Part shown: positions 3,578-9,077 of the stretch, one piece after another
Numbering within the stretch: the first letter of the stretch is position 1
Layout of the letters: the number at the start of each line of letters is the position of its first letter
IMG/VR virus record: IMGVR_UViG_3300031211_000002
Location: 1 to 40,170 of that record
Length of the DNA stretch: 40,170 nt
Direction: 5' to 3' (one strand)
Source of the DNA: a virus
Position numbers and translations under genes: made by a program
Notes under the pieces: generated by a model
Told to the model about the DNA's origin: nothing
The model's input: the letters and a program-made list of their open reading frames with translations, nothing else
Databases searched by the model: none

Positions 3578-3699
3578 AGCGTTGCAATGTTGGTGGAAAA
3601 TCGCCAATATCACGAGGCGCGGCTAGGGGGATACCCCGAACATCGGACCCTCCCCCGACCGCCGCGCGCACTTTCAGGGAGATGTGACAGGAGATCACA

Positions 3700-4293
3700 A
3701 TGACAGATTACAGAGTTGAGGCTAAGTTCAGAAACGCGCGTCTGCTGGCAGCGTTTGAACGTATTGGCGAATCGCCGACAGGGTTTGCCAAGTCTCGCGG
3801 CCTGAGCATAACAAGAACTTGCGCCATTGTTGCAATGACCAAAAGACCCGTTGATCGAAACGGTGATTGGTGGCCGGAAGTCATGGCCCTGTGCGATGCT
3901 GCGTCGGTTATGCCCTGCGATATGTTTAACGAAAAGCAGATGGATGGGTTTGATAAAACCTCATTTTCTAAAGACGTGGATGAATCACTGCTGGCCGCTT
4001 CGGAATTTAACAGAATGCAGCTTTCAGCAACCCCAATTTGTGACCGTGAGGAAAACATAGAACTGGCTTCTAAGCTATTTTATTGGATAACTGAATATAA
4101 CCCTCGCTACGCAAAAGTTGTGTCCCTGCACAGCGACGGGCTTACTTTTGACGAAATAGGAAGTGAACTAGGCGTTACTAAAGAGCGTGTTAGACAGATA
4201 GTAACCAAAAGCCACAGAATGATGAAAGACTATGCCAAAAAGAGGCTTGGAATTGATAACCTTGCAGGCGCATTCAAGGAGATCATACAATGA
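3700..4293 (+). CDS. Two-headed transcription regulator: XRE-like N-terminus plus sigma-70 region 4-like C-terminus
   Basis: A 197-residue protein. Residues about 8-70 (NARLLAAFERIGES, GFAKSRGLSITRTCAIV) look like a phage repressor-type helix-turn-helix. Residues about 140-185 (LTFDEIGSELGVTKERVRQI) closely match sigma-70 region 4, the part that reads the -35 box. Proteins with this pairing occur in alphaproteobacterial phages. It may redirect host RNA polymerase to the late promoter near 7065, though that is inference. AGGAG lies six bases before the ATG. No regions 2 or 3 are present, so it cannot be a complete sigma factor. Confidence 0.8.
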   Translation: MTDYRVEAKFRNARLLAAFERIGESPTGFAKSRGLSITRTCAIVAMTKRPVDRNGDWWPEVMALCDAASVMPCDMFNEKQMDGFDKTSFSKDVDESLLAASEFNRMQLSATPICDREENIELASKLFYWITEYNPRYAKVVSLHSDGLTFDEIGSELGVTKERVRQIVTKSHRMMKDYAKKRLGIDNLAGAFKEIIQ

Positions 4294-4550: not shown

Positions 4551-5135
4551 ATGACTACTGGCAAAATATGCAGCATAGACGGATGTAGCAAGCCATTCAT
4601 GGCTAGGGGGTGGTGTAGTGCCCACTGGACAAGGTGGAAAAGAAACGGGCACCCTCTTGGAGGTGGGATAGATCGCGGCAAAACTGTTGAATTTTTTGAA
4701 GAGGCTAAGAAATTTAACGGGAAGGAGTGCATGATTTGGCCTTATGCAAAAGACGCAAACGGTTATGCTCAAATAAACTACGGTGGTAAGGTTAGATATG
4801 TTCATCGAGAAGTATGCATATTTATTTACGGAGAGCCGGAAGATGGAGTTGTAGCAGCTCACTCATGTGGCAGGGGGAACATGGGGTGCATCAACCCAAG
4901 CCATCTTAGGTGGGCAACGTTTAAAGAAAACTATGAAGATTCTGTTTTACACAAAACGGCCGTTCGCGGAGAAAGGGTAGGTAATTCAAAACTTAAGAAG
5001 GAAGATATAAAAAAAATAAAACAGATGAGAAAAACCATGACGCAGCAAAATGTTGCTAACGTCTTTTCTGTAAGTCGAACTGCGATATCAGACATAGAAA
5101 ACGGACGTAGATGGAAGTGGGCTACAAGTGAATAA
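4551..5135 (+). CDS. HNH endonuclease, homing-type
   Basis: A 194-residue protein. The N-terminus is a short Cys-rich module (CSIDGCSKPFMARGWCSAHW). The HNH core is VVAAHSCGRGNMGCINPSHLRWAT split over residues about 99-123, in which AHSC and CINPSHL carry the metal-binding histidines and cysteines. The C-terminus has a helix-turn-helix (QNVANVFSVSRTAISDIENG) of the kind that targets homing endonucleases. Base composition is visibly more AT-rich than the neighbours, which suggests recent arrival. An exceptionally strong AAGGAGG lies five bases before the ATG, and it has its own promoter-like sequence. Probably a free-standing mobile endonuclease. Confidence 0.88.
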   Translation: MTTGKICSIDGCSKPFMARGWCSAHWTRWKRNGHPLGGGIDRGKTVEFFEEAKKFNGKECMIWPYAKDANGYAQINYGGKVRYVHREVCIFIYGEPEDGVVAAHSCGRGNMGCINPSHLRWATFKENYEDSVLHKTAVRGERVGNSKLKKEDIKKIKQMRKTMTQQNVANVFSVSRTAISDIENGRRWKWATSE

Positions 5136-6347: not shown

Positions 6348-6508
6348 CCTTTGATCGCGTAGTTGTCGCGGCCCATTGCCAAGGCAAGCAACTCATGGCA
6401 CGCAACGAAGCCCACGCACTCGCACGCAAGCAAAGTAAGCGCGGGGTTTATGTCGGCGCATATCGGTGCAAGGTTTGCAGTAAATGGCACGTAGGGAAAG
6501 AAACATGA
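6344..6508 (+). CDS. Small protein with C-terminal CxxC motif
   Basis: A 54-residue basic protein ending AYRCKVCSKWHVGKET. The RCxxCxxWHvG ending is frequent in small phage proteins and may bind zinc with the histidine. The ATG overlaps the previous stop and the stop overlaps the next start. It probably acts with nucleic acid or a protein partner, but nothing more can be said. Confidence 0.65.
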   Translation: MTFDRVVVAAHCQGKQLMARNEAHALARKQSKRGVYVGAYRCKVCSKWHVGKET

Positions 6509-7029
6509 GCAGCAAGGCAGAAGCAAGGCGCAAAAAGAAGGCCGCACAAGGGCAGCAAGGTCCACAGGCGGCAACCACACCAGAGACAGCACCCACGGCA
6601 ACCAGTGCGCGGGAAACCACGCGCCCCACGCCGGAACGCATGGCGCTCGGCAAGTGGATCAAACCGCAAGGAGCCGACAAGCGGTCACAGCCAATGGTGG
6701 ACACTGCGAACGACATGATTGGCAGGCTATACCAGAAGGGCCAGCTAACGGCATCGCAAGAGCAATCAGCGCGTACTTTTCAGGAGTTATGGGCGGCGTA
6801 TAGGTCAGAACTTGGCGTCTCAGAATATCGCTCATGCCTAGCAGGTGGCGTTGGGGCGCATGACGAAAGCGACGGCAGGCCTGAAGTCTATGCAGCATGG
6901 TACAGCCTATGCGACAAGATCGGGCGCGTATCCGTGGCGGCAATCAAGATGCACGTCGAGCGCGGGGCAGACGAAAAGCCCATAAACCTGCCCGCGTTAA
7001 AATCGGCGCTTGATCGGGTGGCAGAATAA
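6505..7029 (+). CDS. Last gene of the rightward early operon; candidate late-gene regulator
   Basis: A 174-residue protein. The first 50 residues are low-complexity and basic/Ala-Thr-rich (SSKAEARRKKKAAQG). The folded part has MIGRLYQKGQLTASQEQSAR, YRSELGVSEYRSCLAGGVG, AWYSLCDKIG and a last helix LPALKSALDRVAE. Proteins of this general shape sit just before terminase genes in alphaproteobacterial phages and weakly recall DUF6456. Its position, last in the early operon and directly before the late promoter region, is the place of lambda Q. An antiterminator or late activator role is inference. Confidence 0.65.
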   Translation: MSSKAEARRKKKAAQGQQGPQAATTPETAPTATSARETTRPTPERMALGKWIKPQGADKRSQPMVDTANDMIGRLYQKGQLTASQEQSARTFQELWAAYRSELGVSEYRSCLAGGVGAHDESDGRPEVYAAWYSLCDKIGRVSVAAIKMHVERGADEKPINLPALKSALDRVAE

Positions 7030-7064
7030 AAATTCGGTTGACGCGCCTGCGTAAGTATGCGATC

Positions 7065-7093
7065 TTGACACCAAGATAATTCCGTCTTGTAGA
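7065..7093 (+). promoter_or_regulatory. Candidate late promoter
   Basis: A perfect -35 TTGACA (7065-7070) is followed after 17 bases by TGTAGA (7088-7093), a weak -10. A second TTGACG lies upstream near 7038. It stands in the only large non-coding gap between the early and late genes and upstream of two large RNA structures. A good -35 with a poor -10 would suit a promoter helped by an activator such as the region-4 protein at 3700-4293. Confidence 0.5.
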
Positions 7094-7131
7094 AATGCAG
7101 GGCGGTTTTTGTTTTAATGACGCTTTCTTGC

Positions 7132-7260
7132 GGTGCATCACGTCCGGCTAATAATCGGTAGGAGTAGGGTCGCGGCCTACCTGATGCACCCCATGAGCGC
7201 GGAGATGGCTTCGTCTAGTGGCCATGCGGTAGATACTAGATAACCCGCGAACCCGCGCTC
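7132..7260 (+). ncRNA. Tandem structured RNA leader (two multi-arm stem structures)
   Basis: Structure 1: GGTGCATCA (7132-7140) pairs perfectly with TGATGCACC (7182-7190), enclosing an inner hairpin GGTAGG/CCTACC (7157-7162 with 7176-7181). Four bases later, structure 2: GAGCGCGG (7195-7202) pairs perfectly with CCGCGCTC (7253-7260), enclosing ATGGC/GCCAT (7205-7209 with 7221-7225) and GCGG/CCGC (7226-7229 with 7245-7248). An alternative inner stem TCTAGT/ACTAGA (7214-7219 with 7235-7240) competes with those arms. The pair would be transcribed from the 7065 promoter. Possible roles are a put-like antitermination RNA, a regulatory leader, or a packaging recognition region. It is not a tRNA. 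The surrounding gap 7030-7408 holds no credible gene. Confidence 0.55.
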
Positions 7261-7349
7261 AACCCACACCCTCAGCCTCTCCACACGGCGAACCCCCGCA
7301 GCCGTCATCGCTACCAATGCGCGCAAGCGTCAACGCTGGGGCTGGATCG

Positions 7350-7389
7350 TTTTATCACGGCGAATTGGTGGCGCGGGGAAATGATAAAA
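7350..7389. promoter_or_regulatory. Inverted repeat just upstream of the terminase small subunit gene
   Basis: TTTTATCA (7350-7357) and TGATAAAA (7382-7389) are perfect complements around 24 bases. A second small dyad AGCGTCAACGCT lies at 7326-7337. The repeat ends 19 bp before the terminase small subunit start and just upstream of its AAAGGA ribosome binding site. Small terminase proteins often bind near their own gene, so a pac or cos-associated site is plausible. It could also be an operator or an RNA hairpin controlling translation. Confidence 0.45.
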
Positions 7390-7408
7390 AATCAAAGGAA
7401 ATCATAGC

Positions 7409-7705
7409 ATGGCACGAGGTGGCAAGCGTGATGGCGCGGGCCGCAAACCCGGCGCTGTGAACAAGGCAACGCAAGATCAGCGTGATGCGGTTATTGAAAG
7501 CGGTCTTACGCCGCTGGATTACCTTCTGTCTGTGATGCGTGATGAAGATGCAGACCGTTCCGAAAGGGTAGACGCAGCCCACAAGGCCGCTCCTTACGTT
7601 CACTCCAAGCTGGCAACAGTGGATCACAAGTCTACAGATGGCAGCATGTCACCGCCTGTCACGGTATATCAGCTTCCAGACAATGGCCGCAGTAACGACA
7701 ATTAA
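7409..7705 (+). CDS. terS: Terminase small subunit (probable)
   Basis: A 98-residue protein beginning MARGGKRDGAGRKPGAVNKA. The GGxRxGAGRKPG opening is typical of small terminase and related phage DNA-binding proteins. The rest is helical and acidic, with a Pro-rich tail. It should recognise phage DNA and deliver it to the large subunit for cutting and packaging. It is at the short end for the family. It overlaps the large subunit gene by 23 bp, and an AAAGGA site precedes the ATG. Confidence 0.75.
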   Translation: MARGGKRDGAGRKPGAVNKATQDQRDAVIESGLTPLDYLLSVMRDEDADRSERVDAAHKAAPYVHSKLATVDHKSTDGSMSPPVTVYQLPDNGRSNDN

Positions 7706-9077
7706 GCCGCAGGAGGGGCCGCAAGAGCGGTTCTTAGCCAGCGGTGCAGACATAGCCATTTACGGGGGCAGCGCAGGAGGCGGCAAGACATGGGCCTTGC
7801 TGCTAGAGCCGTTACGACACGTTGCAAATAAAGATTTTGGCGCGGTGTTCTTTCGCCGATCTATGGTGCAGGTCAAGAACGAAGGCGGCTTATGGGACGA
7901 GAGCGCGAAGCTATACCCGCTCATCGCTGCCGACCCTAAAGAGCATAACGCCACATGGGCCTTTCCTTCCGGCGCTAACATATCGTTTGCACATCTGGAA
8001 CACGACAAGACGAGGTTCAACTGGCAAGGCTCGCAGATCCCGCTGATCTGTTTTGATGAGTTGACGCATTTTAGCGAAACGCAATTCTGGTATATGCTTT
8101 CGCGCAACCGTTCTATGTGTGGTGTGAAGCCGTATATCAGGGCAACGTGCAACCCCGACGCAGATAGTTGGGTTGCATCATTCATCGCGTGGTGGATTGA
8201 CCAAGAAACGGGCCTTGCCATTCCTGAGCGGTCTGGCGTTCTTCGTTGGTTTGTTCGAGTTGGCGATACGATCATATGGGGCAATGGCCCTGATGATTTG
8301 ACGCAATACACAATGCCGGATGAAAACGGTGATCCCCAGCCAATTCCGGCAAAGTCAGTTACGTTCGTTTCAGCCAGCCTAACAGACAACAAGGCACTGA
8401 TGGCTGCTGACCCAAGCTACATGGCGTCATTGCTGGCGTTGCCAACGGTTGAGCGTGAGCGCCTGTTAGGCGGCAACTGGAAAATCAGACCAGCGGCGGG
8501 CCTATACTTCCAGCGCCACTGGACGCAGGTAGTTGATGCCGTCCCATCTGATCTGCGCATTGTGCGGGGGTGGGACTTGGCAGGGACGCCAAAGATTGAA
8601 AGCAATGATCCAGACTGGACGTGCGGCACAAAGATGGGCGTTACGCCAGATGGGCGGTACTTCGTCCTAGATCACGTTTATGACCGCAAGGGACCGATGG
8701 ACGTGGAGCGCCTTGTAAAAGGTACCGCAGAGCAAGACGGAAGAGACGTGGCGATTGATATGCCGCAAGACCCCGGCCAATCCGGTAAGGCGCAAGTGGC
8801 GACCTACAGCAAGCTGTTGACTGGCTATAATTGCCGCTTTGCCACTGTGACGGGCGACAAGGTTACAAGGTTTTCGGGATTCTCTGCACAGGCCGAGGCG
8901 GGCAACGTGTTTGTCTTGCGCGGCAAGTGGAATGATAGGTGGTTTTCGGAACTTGAAAACTTCCCGCCCGAAACTGGGCATGATGACGACGCAGACAGCA
9001 CAGCGCAGGCTTTCAACTTCTTAGCCAACAAGCGCCAACCGAAAACAACAACTACAACGGTCAAAGGATTGTACTAA
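7683..9077 (+). CDS. terL: Terminase large subunit
   Basis: A 464-residue packaging motor. The ATPase half has Walker A GGSAGGGKT at residues 28-36 and Walker B LICFDE at 121-126, followed by the coupling-type sequence ATCNPDADSWV. The C-terminal nuclease half has the acidic residues of the RNase H-like fold: RGWDLAGT, VAIDMPQDPG and GHDDDADSTAQAF. It cuts concatemers and pumps DNA into the prohead through the portal. ATG 7683 is chosen because the conserved protein begins KPQEGPQERFLAS, and an upstream in-frame start at 7638 would lie deep in the small-subunit gene. Size and motif order are normal. Confidence 0.95.
   Translation: MAAVTTIKPQEGPQERFLASGADIAIYGGSAGGGKTWALLLEPLRHVANKDFGAVFFRRSMVQVKNEGGLWDESAKLYPLIAADPKEHNATWAFPSGANISFAHLEHDKTRFNWQGSQIPLICFDELTHFSETQFWYMLSRNRSMCGVKPYIRATCNPDADSWVASFIAWWIDQETGLAIPERSGVLRWFVRVGDTIIWGNGPDDLTQYTMPDENGDPQPIPAKSVTFVSASLTDNKALMAADPSYMASLLALPTVERERLLGGNWKIRPAAGLYFQRHWTQVVDAVPSDLRIVRGWDLAGTPKIESNDPDWTCGTKMGVTPDGRYFVLDHVYDRKGPMDVERLVKGTAEQDGRDVAIDMPQDPGQSGKAQVATYSKLLTGYNCRFATVTGDKVTRFSGFSAQAEAGNVFVLRGKWNDRWFSELENFPPETGHDDDADSTAQAFNFLANKRQPKTTTTTVKGLY

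Follow-up and report, generated by a model that had tools for sequence, protein, structure and literature searches.

A structured RNA cassette with exchangeable interiors in a phage late-operon leader: a candidate undescribed RNA family

The window (the whole 40,170-nucleotide stretch of DNA analyzed here, from a bacterial virus of marine type) carries, ahead of its terminase genes, a 142-nt cassette, and comparison with homologues gives good support to its being a member of an undescribed, phage-specific family of structured RNAs. That comparison shows a conserved frame and two covarying clamps holding predicted structured inserts that are largely unrelated and reassort between phages. Within the open-licence literature we know of no RNA family whose conserved frame encloses a pair of structured inserts that reassort freely and are for the most part unrelated. 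The initial annotation of this region had described two closing stems of nine and eight perfect pairs, four bases apart and each with inner arms, behind a late promoter; the stems are exactly as it stated and inner arms are possible in both structures, but the element begins further upstream than it had placed it, with a constant motif at 7120-7133. The cassette and its surroundings in the window comprise the following features.

6484..7029, + strand: ORF P0003, 181 aa, with a basic, arginine-rich N-terminus, immediately upstream of the late promoter
7038..7066, + strand: putative late promoter, TTGACG-17-GATCTT, sigma-70-like, picked by eye, the window copy lying under the scan threshold
7082..7115, + strand: intrinsic terminator-like hairpin, strong, with 10 pairs (TTTTTGTTTT), a GAAA loop and a T tract
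7116..7260, + strand: optional insert bearing the cassette, delimited by empty-site comparison and missing from L114, L119, L149 and others
7120-7261, + strand: whole RNA cassette, 142 nt, constant 5′ motif plus modules M1 and M2
7120..7133, + strand: constant 5′ motif, 14 nt, consensus CCGCTTTGATGYGG, invariant or near-invariant columns in the 26-sequence alignment A1
7132..7190, + strand: module M1, a 9-bp clamp (7132-7140/7182-7190) enclosing an exchangeable interior
7194..7261, + strand: module M2, a 9-bp clamp (7194-7202/7253-7261) enclosing an exchangeable interior
7205..7225, + strand: M2 inner arm ATGGC/GCCAT, loop TTCGTCTAGTG, with compensatory ACTGC/GCAGT in L174
7226..7248, + strand: M2 inner arm GCGG/CCGC, read from the sequence
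7273..7390, + strand: constant stretch 3′ of the cassette, retained in most cassette-less close relatives
7409..7705, + strand: small terminase gene, the first gene after the leader (PHROG terminase small subunit, E = 7e-9)
7638-9077, + strand: large terminase gene, next after the small terminase (Terminase_6N/6C domains)

The final GG of the constant 5′ motif is also the start of the M1 clamp, in which GGTGCATCA (7132-7140) pairs with TGATGCACC (7182-7190) through nine perfect pairs. In the M2 clamp, eight perfect pairs are formed between 7195-7202 and 7253-7260, or nine with T7194-A7261. A separate hairpin for the constant 5′ motif was considered and rejected, as its GG is common with the M1 clamp and its invariance is too high for a covariation check. 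Within M2, the loop ACTAGA (7235-7240) could pair with its complement TCTAGT (7214-7219) in a kissing contact, and the inner arms appear in the minimum-energy fold of L174 but not in that of the window. The folding energy in the window is ordinary (z = −0.87; equaled or bettered by 33 of 200 shuffles), so the single sequence would not have proved the structures; they are considered real because the comparison of homologues shows clamp covariation.

Across 26 distinct homologues, 98.6% of the clamp cells are paired, and 37 of them, a count that 0 of 500 shuffles reached, are changed on both sides, compared with 8.3 in shuffled alignments; shifting the clamp partner by one to three columns cuts the pairing to 23-65%. 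Changes on both sides were found at six of the eight counted pairs of the M1 clamp, while the M2 clamp shows a G-C to A-U change and 14 G-U versus 0 A-C combinations, with G-U on the transcribed strand only. In the alignment (A1) the frame is gap-free, the interiors having been trimmed or N-padded to equal length beforehand. Frame constancy was partly selected for, as several members were found with frame-built patterns; the covariation of the M1 clamp was not, since nearly all of its bases are unspecified in the pattern. Covariation in homologous phages, the check on which the initial annotation had staked its structures, is thus strong, and its suggestion of a new structured RNA in a late-operon leader is borne out by the relatives.

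Relatives were first gathered by searches with the small terminase, the large terminase and P0003; a frame pattern matched 32 IMG/VR stretches, to which a second pattern contributed seven new ones. The same frame is present in 37 loci (43 units), with two further divergent ones, from about 20 metagenomes and two isolated Rhodobacterales phages, Sulfitobacter phiGT1 and Octadecabacter (Antarctic) DB virus 2; the majority of members are fragments from metagenomes. Tandem and multiple copies occur in the family, and phiGT1, found via BLAST of the modules, carries two units in tandem, flanked by an RfaH/NusG-like gene on one side and the small terminase gene on the other. The annotated proteins phiGT1_69 (L155:2909-3355) and DB2_74 (L224:2891-3415) overlap cassettes, and each is likely a spurious gene or one with a wrong start. 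The window has the features that define the family, namely the constant 5′ motif, the covarying M1 clamp and the M2 clamp CATRAGCGCGG...CCGCGYTYA. The covariance model R1 places its cassette at 7120-7261 with 66.7 bits, the window sequence itself being in the model alignment, and also detects records outside that alignment, DB virus 2 (30.5 bits) and a divergent unit in L011.

In keeping with the earlier statement that no known motif fits, no Rfam 15 family reached its gathering score over the cassette in the window, phiGT1 or 30 further cassette loci, and a BLAST search of phages and plasmids with the window stretch itself as query returned nothing useful. Among 85,000 bacterial and archaeal genomes (GTDB) the frame pattern gave only 10 hits, all judged to be chance matches in coding sequence, and R1 run over 397 genomes of Litoreibacter's family gave nothing convincing, its three weak matches being chance in coding sequence. 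Readings of the element as a hammerhead ribozyme, an integron attC site or an ops element were raised by sequence features and dropped.

The interiors are mostly unrelated from one cassette to the next: the 43 units hold 32 M1 and 28 M2 types, with a typical pairwise identity about that of shuffled sequence. An M1 type is common to 14 pairs of units and an M2 type to 16, and no pair has both in common (two memberships were added by eye). Among the 43 units, only L116 and L162 have the M1 interior of the window; L005/L116 combines it, with one change, with a different M2, whereas L022/L113 differs from the window in both interiors while keeping the clamps (M1 GGTGTGTG/CACACACC), and L035/L138 joins the M2 of L113 to an M1 of yet another kind, with a NusG/KOW-like gene instead of P0003. 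Interiors that were checked are structured, and recurring ones covary, as in the ATGGC/GCCAT arm of the window and its ACTGC/GCAGT counterpart in L174, and the type present in L162, L167 and L168 has compensatory changes at 5 of 26 predicted pairs. A pseudoknot is possible in one M2 type, that of L155 unit 1, L157 and L171 unit 2; MAFFT displaced one of its helices by one column, so that this helix is undercounted, and by eye all six of its six pairs form in each sequence. Interior lengths range over 31-57 nt (M1) and 42-96 nt (M2) with no preference for multiples of three, which argues against coding. A leader at about 1700-2000 of L039 contains a relative of the M2 of L113 in which the hairpin loop is inverted (CGGCAA versus TTGCCG).

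The cassette was said to lie behind a late promoter, and a sigma-70-like site is indeed present upstream; the terminator-like hairpin that intervenes between this promoter and the cassette, and is therefore upstream of the cassette, had been overlooked. The promoter is plainer in relatives (TTGACA-17-TACTTT, TACCTT), and a promoter-like site was found 52-113 nt upstream of the cassette, mostly at 82-113 nt, in 13 of 42 units, compared with 0 of 41 control stretches. The promoter-proximal hairpin is kept in relatives with or without the cassette, its stem sequence altered and its loops mostly of the GAAA type. P0003 represents a conserved orphan family and is a candidate regulator, and its relatives adjoin the promoter or the cassette in 13 loci. 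Its basic N-terminus recalls the arginine-rich N proteins. Identification of P0003 as a known antiterminator was pursued and abandoned: it has no Pfam match and only weak PHROG matches, and its AlphaFold model (pLDDT 66.5) has no structural match in the PDB. A NusG/KOW-like gene stands in the place of P0003 in L035 and L028.

Close relatives lack the cassette or swap its modules, which makes it optional and mosaic. Promoter and hairpin are present and the cassette absent in L114/L115, L119/L036, L118, L120 and L149, and L028 has a NusG-like leader without a cassette; at the empty sites the hairpin tail continues directly into CAGCCTCTCC or AACCCACAC. The large terminase of the cassette-less L036 is 98% identical to that of the window. 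An essential packaging site was ruled out, given that near-identical terminases occur in cassette-less phages; the constant stretch at 7273-7390 is possibly packaging-related. Elsewhere, cassettes precede terminase genes that fall into separate blastp clusters, and L160 has one cassette before a P0003-family gene and another before its terminase genes.

Other small RNAs occur at or near the same site. ARAGORN found six tRNA genes in these loci, all adjoining a cassette. In L163 an Rfam abiF RNA (39.9 bits, cut-off 37) lies at L163:3903-3939, about 215 nt 3′ of the cassette, and abiF-type cores scoring 26-27 bits, below the cut-off, are present in L009 (near 1201), L011 (near 1802) and L193 (L193:8371-8407, about 2.4 kb from its cassette). 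Promoter and small terminase are near-identical in sequence among L009, L010 and L011; what chiefly sets these loci apart is the leader payload, which is a short stretch in L010, an abiF-type hairpin in L009 and an abiF-type hairpin plus a divergent cassette in L011; L010 additionally differs upstream of the promoter. No Abi_2 gene was detected in the contigs with abiF-type hairpins (L009, L011, L163 and L193, all fragments), and the window has no match to abiF (RF03085).

Adjoining tRNAs, tandem cassettes and orphan abiF-type hairpins indicate that the leader site acts like a cargo bay for RNA. We tentatively favor, at somewhat less than an even chance, a reading of the cassette itself as two-slot structured RNA cargo heading the late transcript, with modules that would act in trans, likeliest as decoys for host proteins. 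The late promoter would transcribe the cassette after the polymerase had passed the promoter-proximal terminator, perhaps with help from the P0003 protein or a NusG-like factor; the modules, after or without processing, would then bind host proteins in the manner of RNA antitoxins neutralizing defense toxins. There are precedents in abiF RNA, which neutralizes AbiF in trans (PMC12373285), and in a phage that evaded ToxIN through an expanded pseudo-ToxI RNA (PMC5086642). The cassette resembles abiF RNA (RF03085) and the type III antitoxin RNAs (ToxI, CptI) in being a small structured RNA, with orphan abiF-type hairpins in the leaders of related phages and, as in type III antitoxins, a possible pseudoknot in one M2 type; it differs from them in that the frame is peculiar to it and no toxin gene accompanies it. 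Against the cargo reading, only one abiF match exceeds the Rfam gathering score, the cassette modules match no known antitoxin RNA, and late expression would be late timing for an anti-defense factor. It is conceivable, though doubtful, that Rhodobacterales phages carry here an RNA display cassette of recombination-swapped RNAs that, with the orphan AbiF-antitoxin RNAs and tRNAs, forms a late-leader anti-defense island. Were the modules trans-acting, they would constitute an exchangeable phage RNA armory comparable to protein anti-defense islands, and every interior type would indicate a host factor.

The strongest rival is a different role, in cis, whereby the leader would stabilize or process the late mRNA or load an antitermination protein, from the P0003 family or of the NusG/RfaH-like kind, with the interiors as loosely constrained filler. 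The constant place between promoter and terminase genes, and that before the P0003 gene in L160, fit a cis role equally well: the distance behind promoters is conserved, the cassette lies ahead of terminase genes even where the large terminases belong to separate clusters, many cassettes are flanked by P0003-family or NusG-like genes, and L160 has its cassettes ahead of the P0003 gene and of terS alike. NusG-like genes beside the leader in phiGT1 and L035 likewise recall LoaP/RfaH-type leaders. However, the cassette is missing from relatives that agree in promoter, hairpin and P0003 gene; several large cassette contigs contain no P0003 or NusG gene that could be found, so that a NusG-like gene is not always detectable alongside a cassette; and the interiors, unlike filler, have structure and fall into distinct recurring types. 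We hold the cis role to be unlikely, albeit a serious contender; if correct, it would make the cassette a new kind of late-operon leader. The initial annotation had proposed one particular cis role, put-like antitermination, in which the nascent cassette would bind RNA polymerase and downstream terminators would be ignored without a phage protein, a mode of action that in HK022-type put RNA involves the zinc-binding domain of the polymerase beta′ subunit. Like HK022 putL and putR, the cassette has two adjacent stem-loop domains near the 5′ end of a long phage transcript, and some phages have more than one copy. Yet put RNA is about 70 nt, follows early promoters, has copies alike in sequence and works on later terminators (PMC9378689), whereas the cassette is twice that size at 142 nt, lies in a late leader behind the one good terminator-like site in the vicinity, has interiors unrelated between copies (at shuffled identity), is missing from near-identical phages and yields no R1 match in HK022 (best E = 0.21). 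The proposal did not survive these comparisons and is considered very unlikely.

The T-arm motifs of some M2 modules suggest a tRNA-related role instead, with the modules being tRNA-derived or atypical tRNAs of a phage tRNA array. GTTCRA occurs in 6 of 39 M2 interiors, several times in good T-arms, compared with 0.98 in shuffles, and cassettes are adjoined by tRNA genes, so that stable-RNA cargo neighbors them as in such arrays. The motif is found in none of the 43 M1 interiors and is missing from the window, T-arms are absent from most interiors, a pseudoknot is possible in other M2 types, and no cassette is recognized as a tRNA by ARAGORN (default settings) or matches the Rfam tRNA family (RF00005); this origin is quite unlikely. 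A DNA-level site, be it for packaging or recombination or as a hairpin-moving element, with inverted repeats that only resemble RNA structure, is highly improbable. Such a site would suit the adjoining small terminase gene and the recombination-like exchange of interiors between constant blocks, but the G-U pairs of the M2 clamp are strand-biased, the cassette is on the strand of the genes read here, and phages with near-identical terminases manage without it. Its presence in two isolated phages makes the cassette directly testable.

Two further features were noted elsewhere in the window. An Rfam int-alpA RNA (RF02996, 41.5 bits) at 3616-3679 lies just 5′ of an ORF at 3700-4293 that has a sigma-70 region 4 match, and 4551-5135 encodes an HNH endonuclease with a helix-turn-helix domain.
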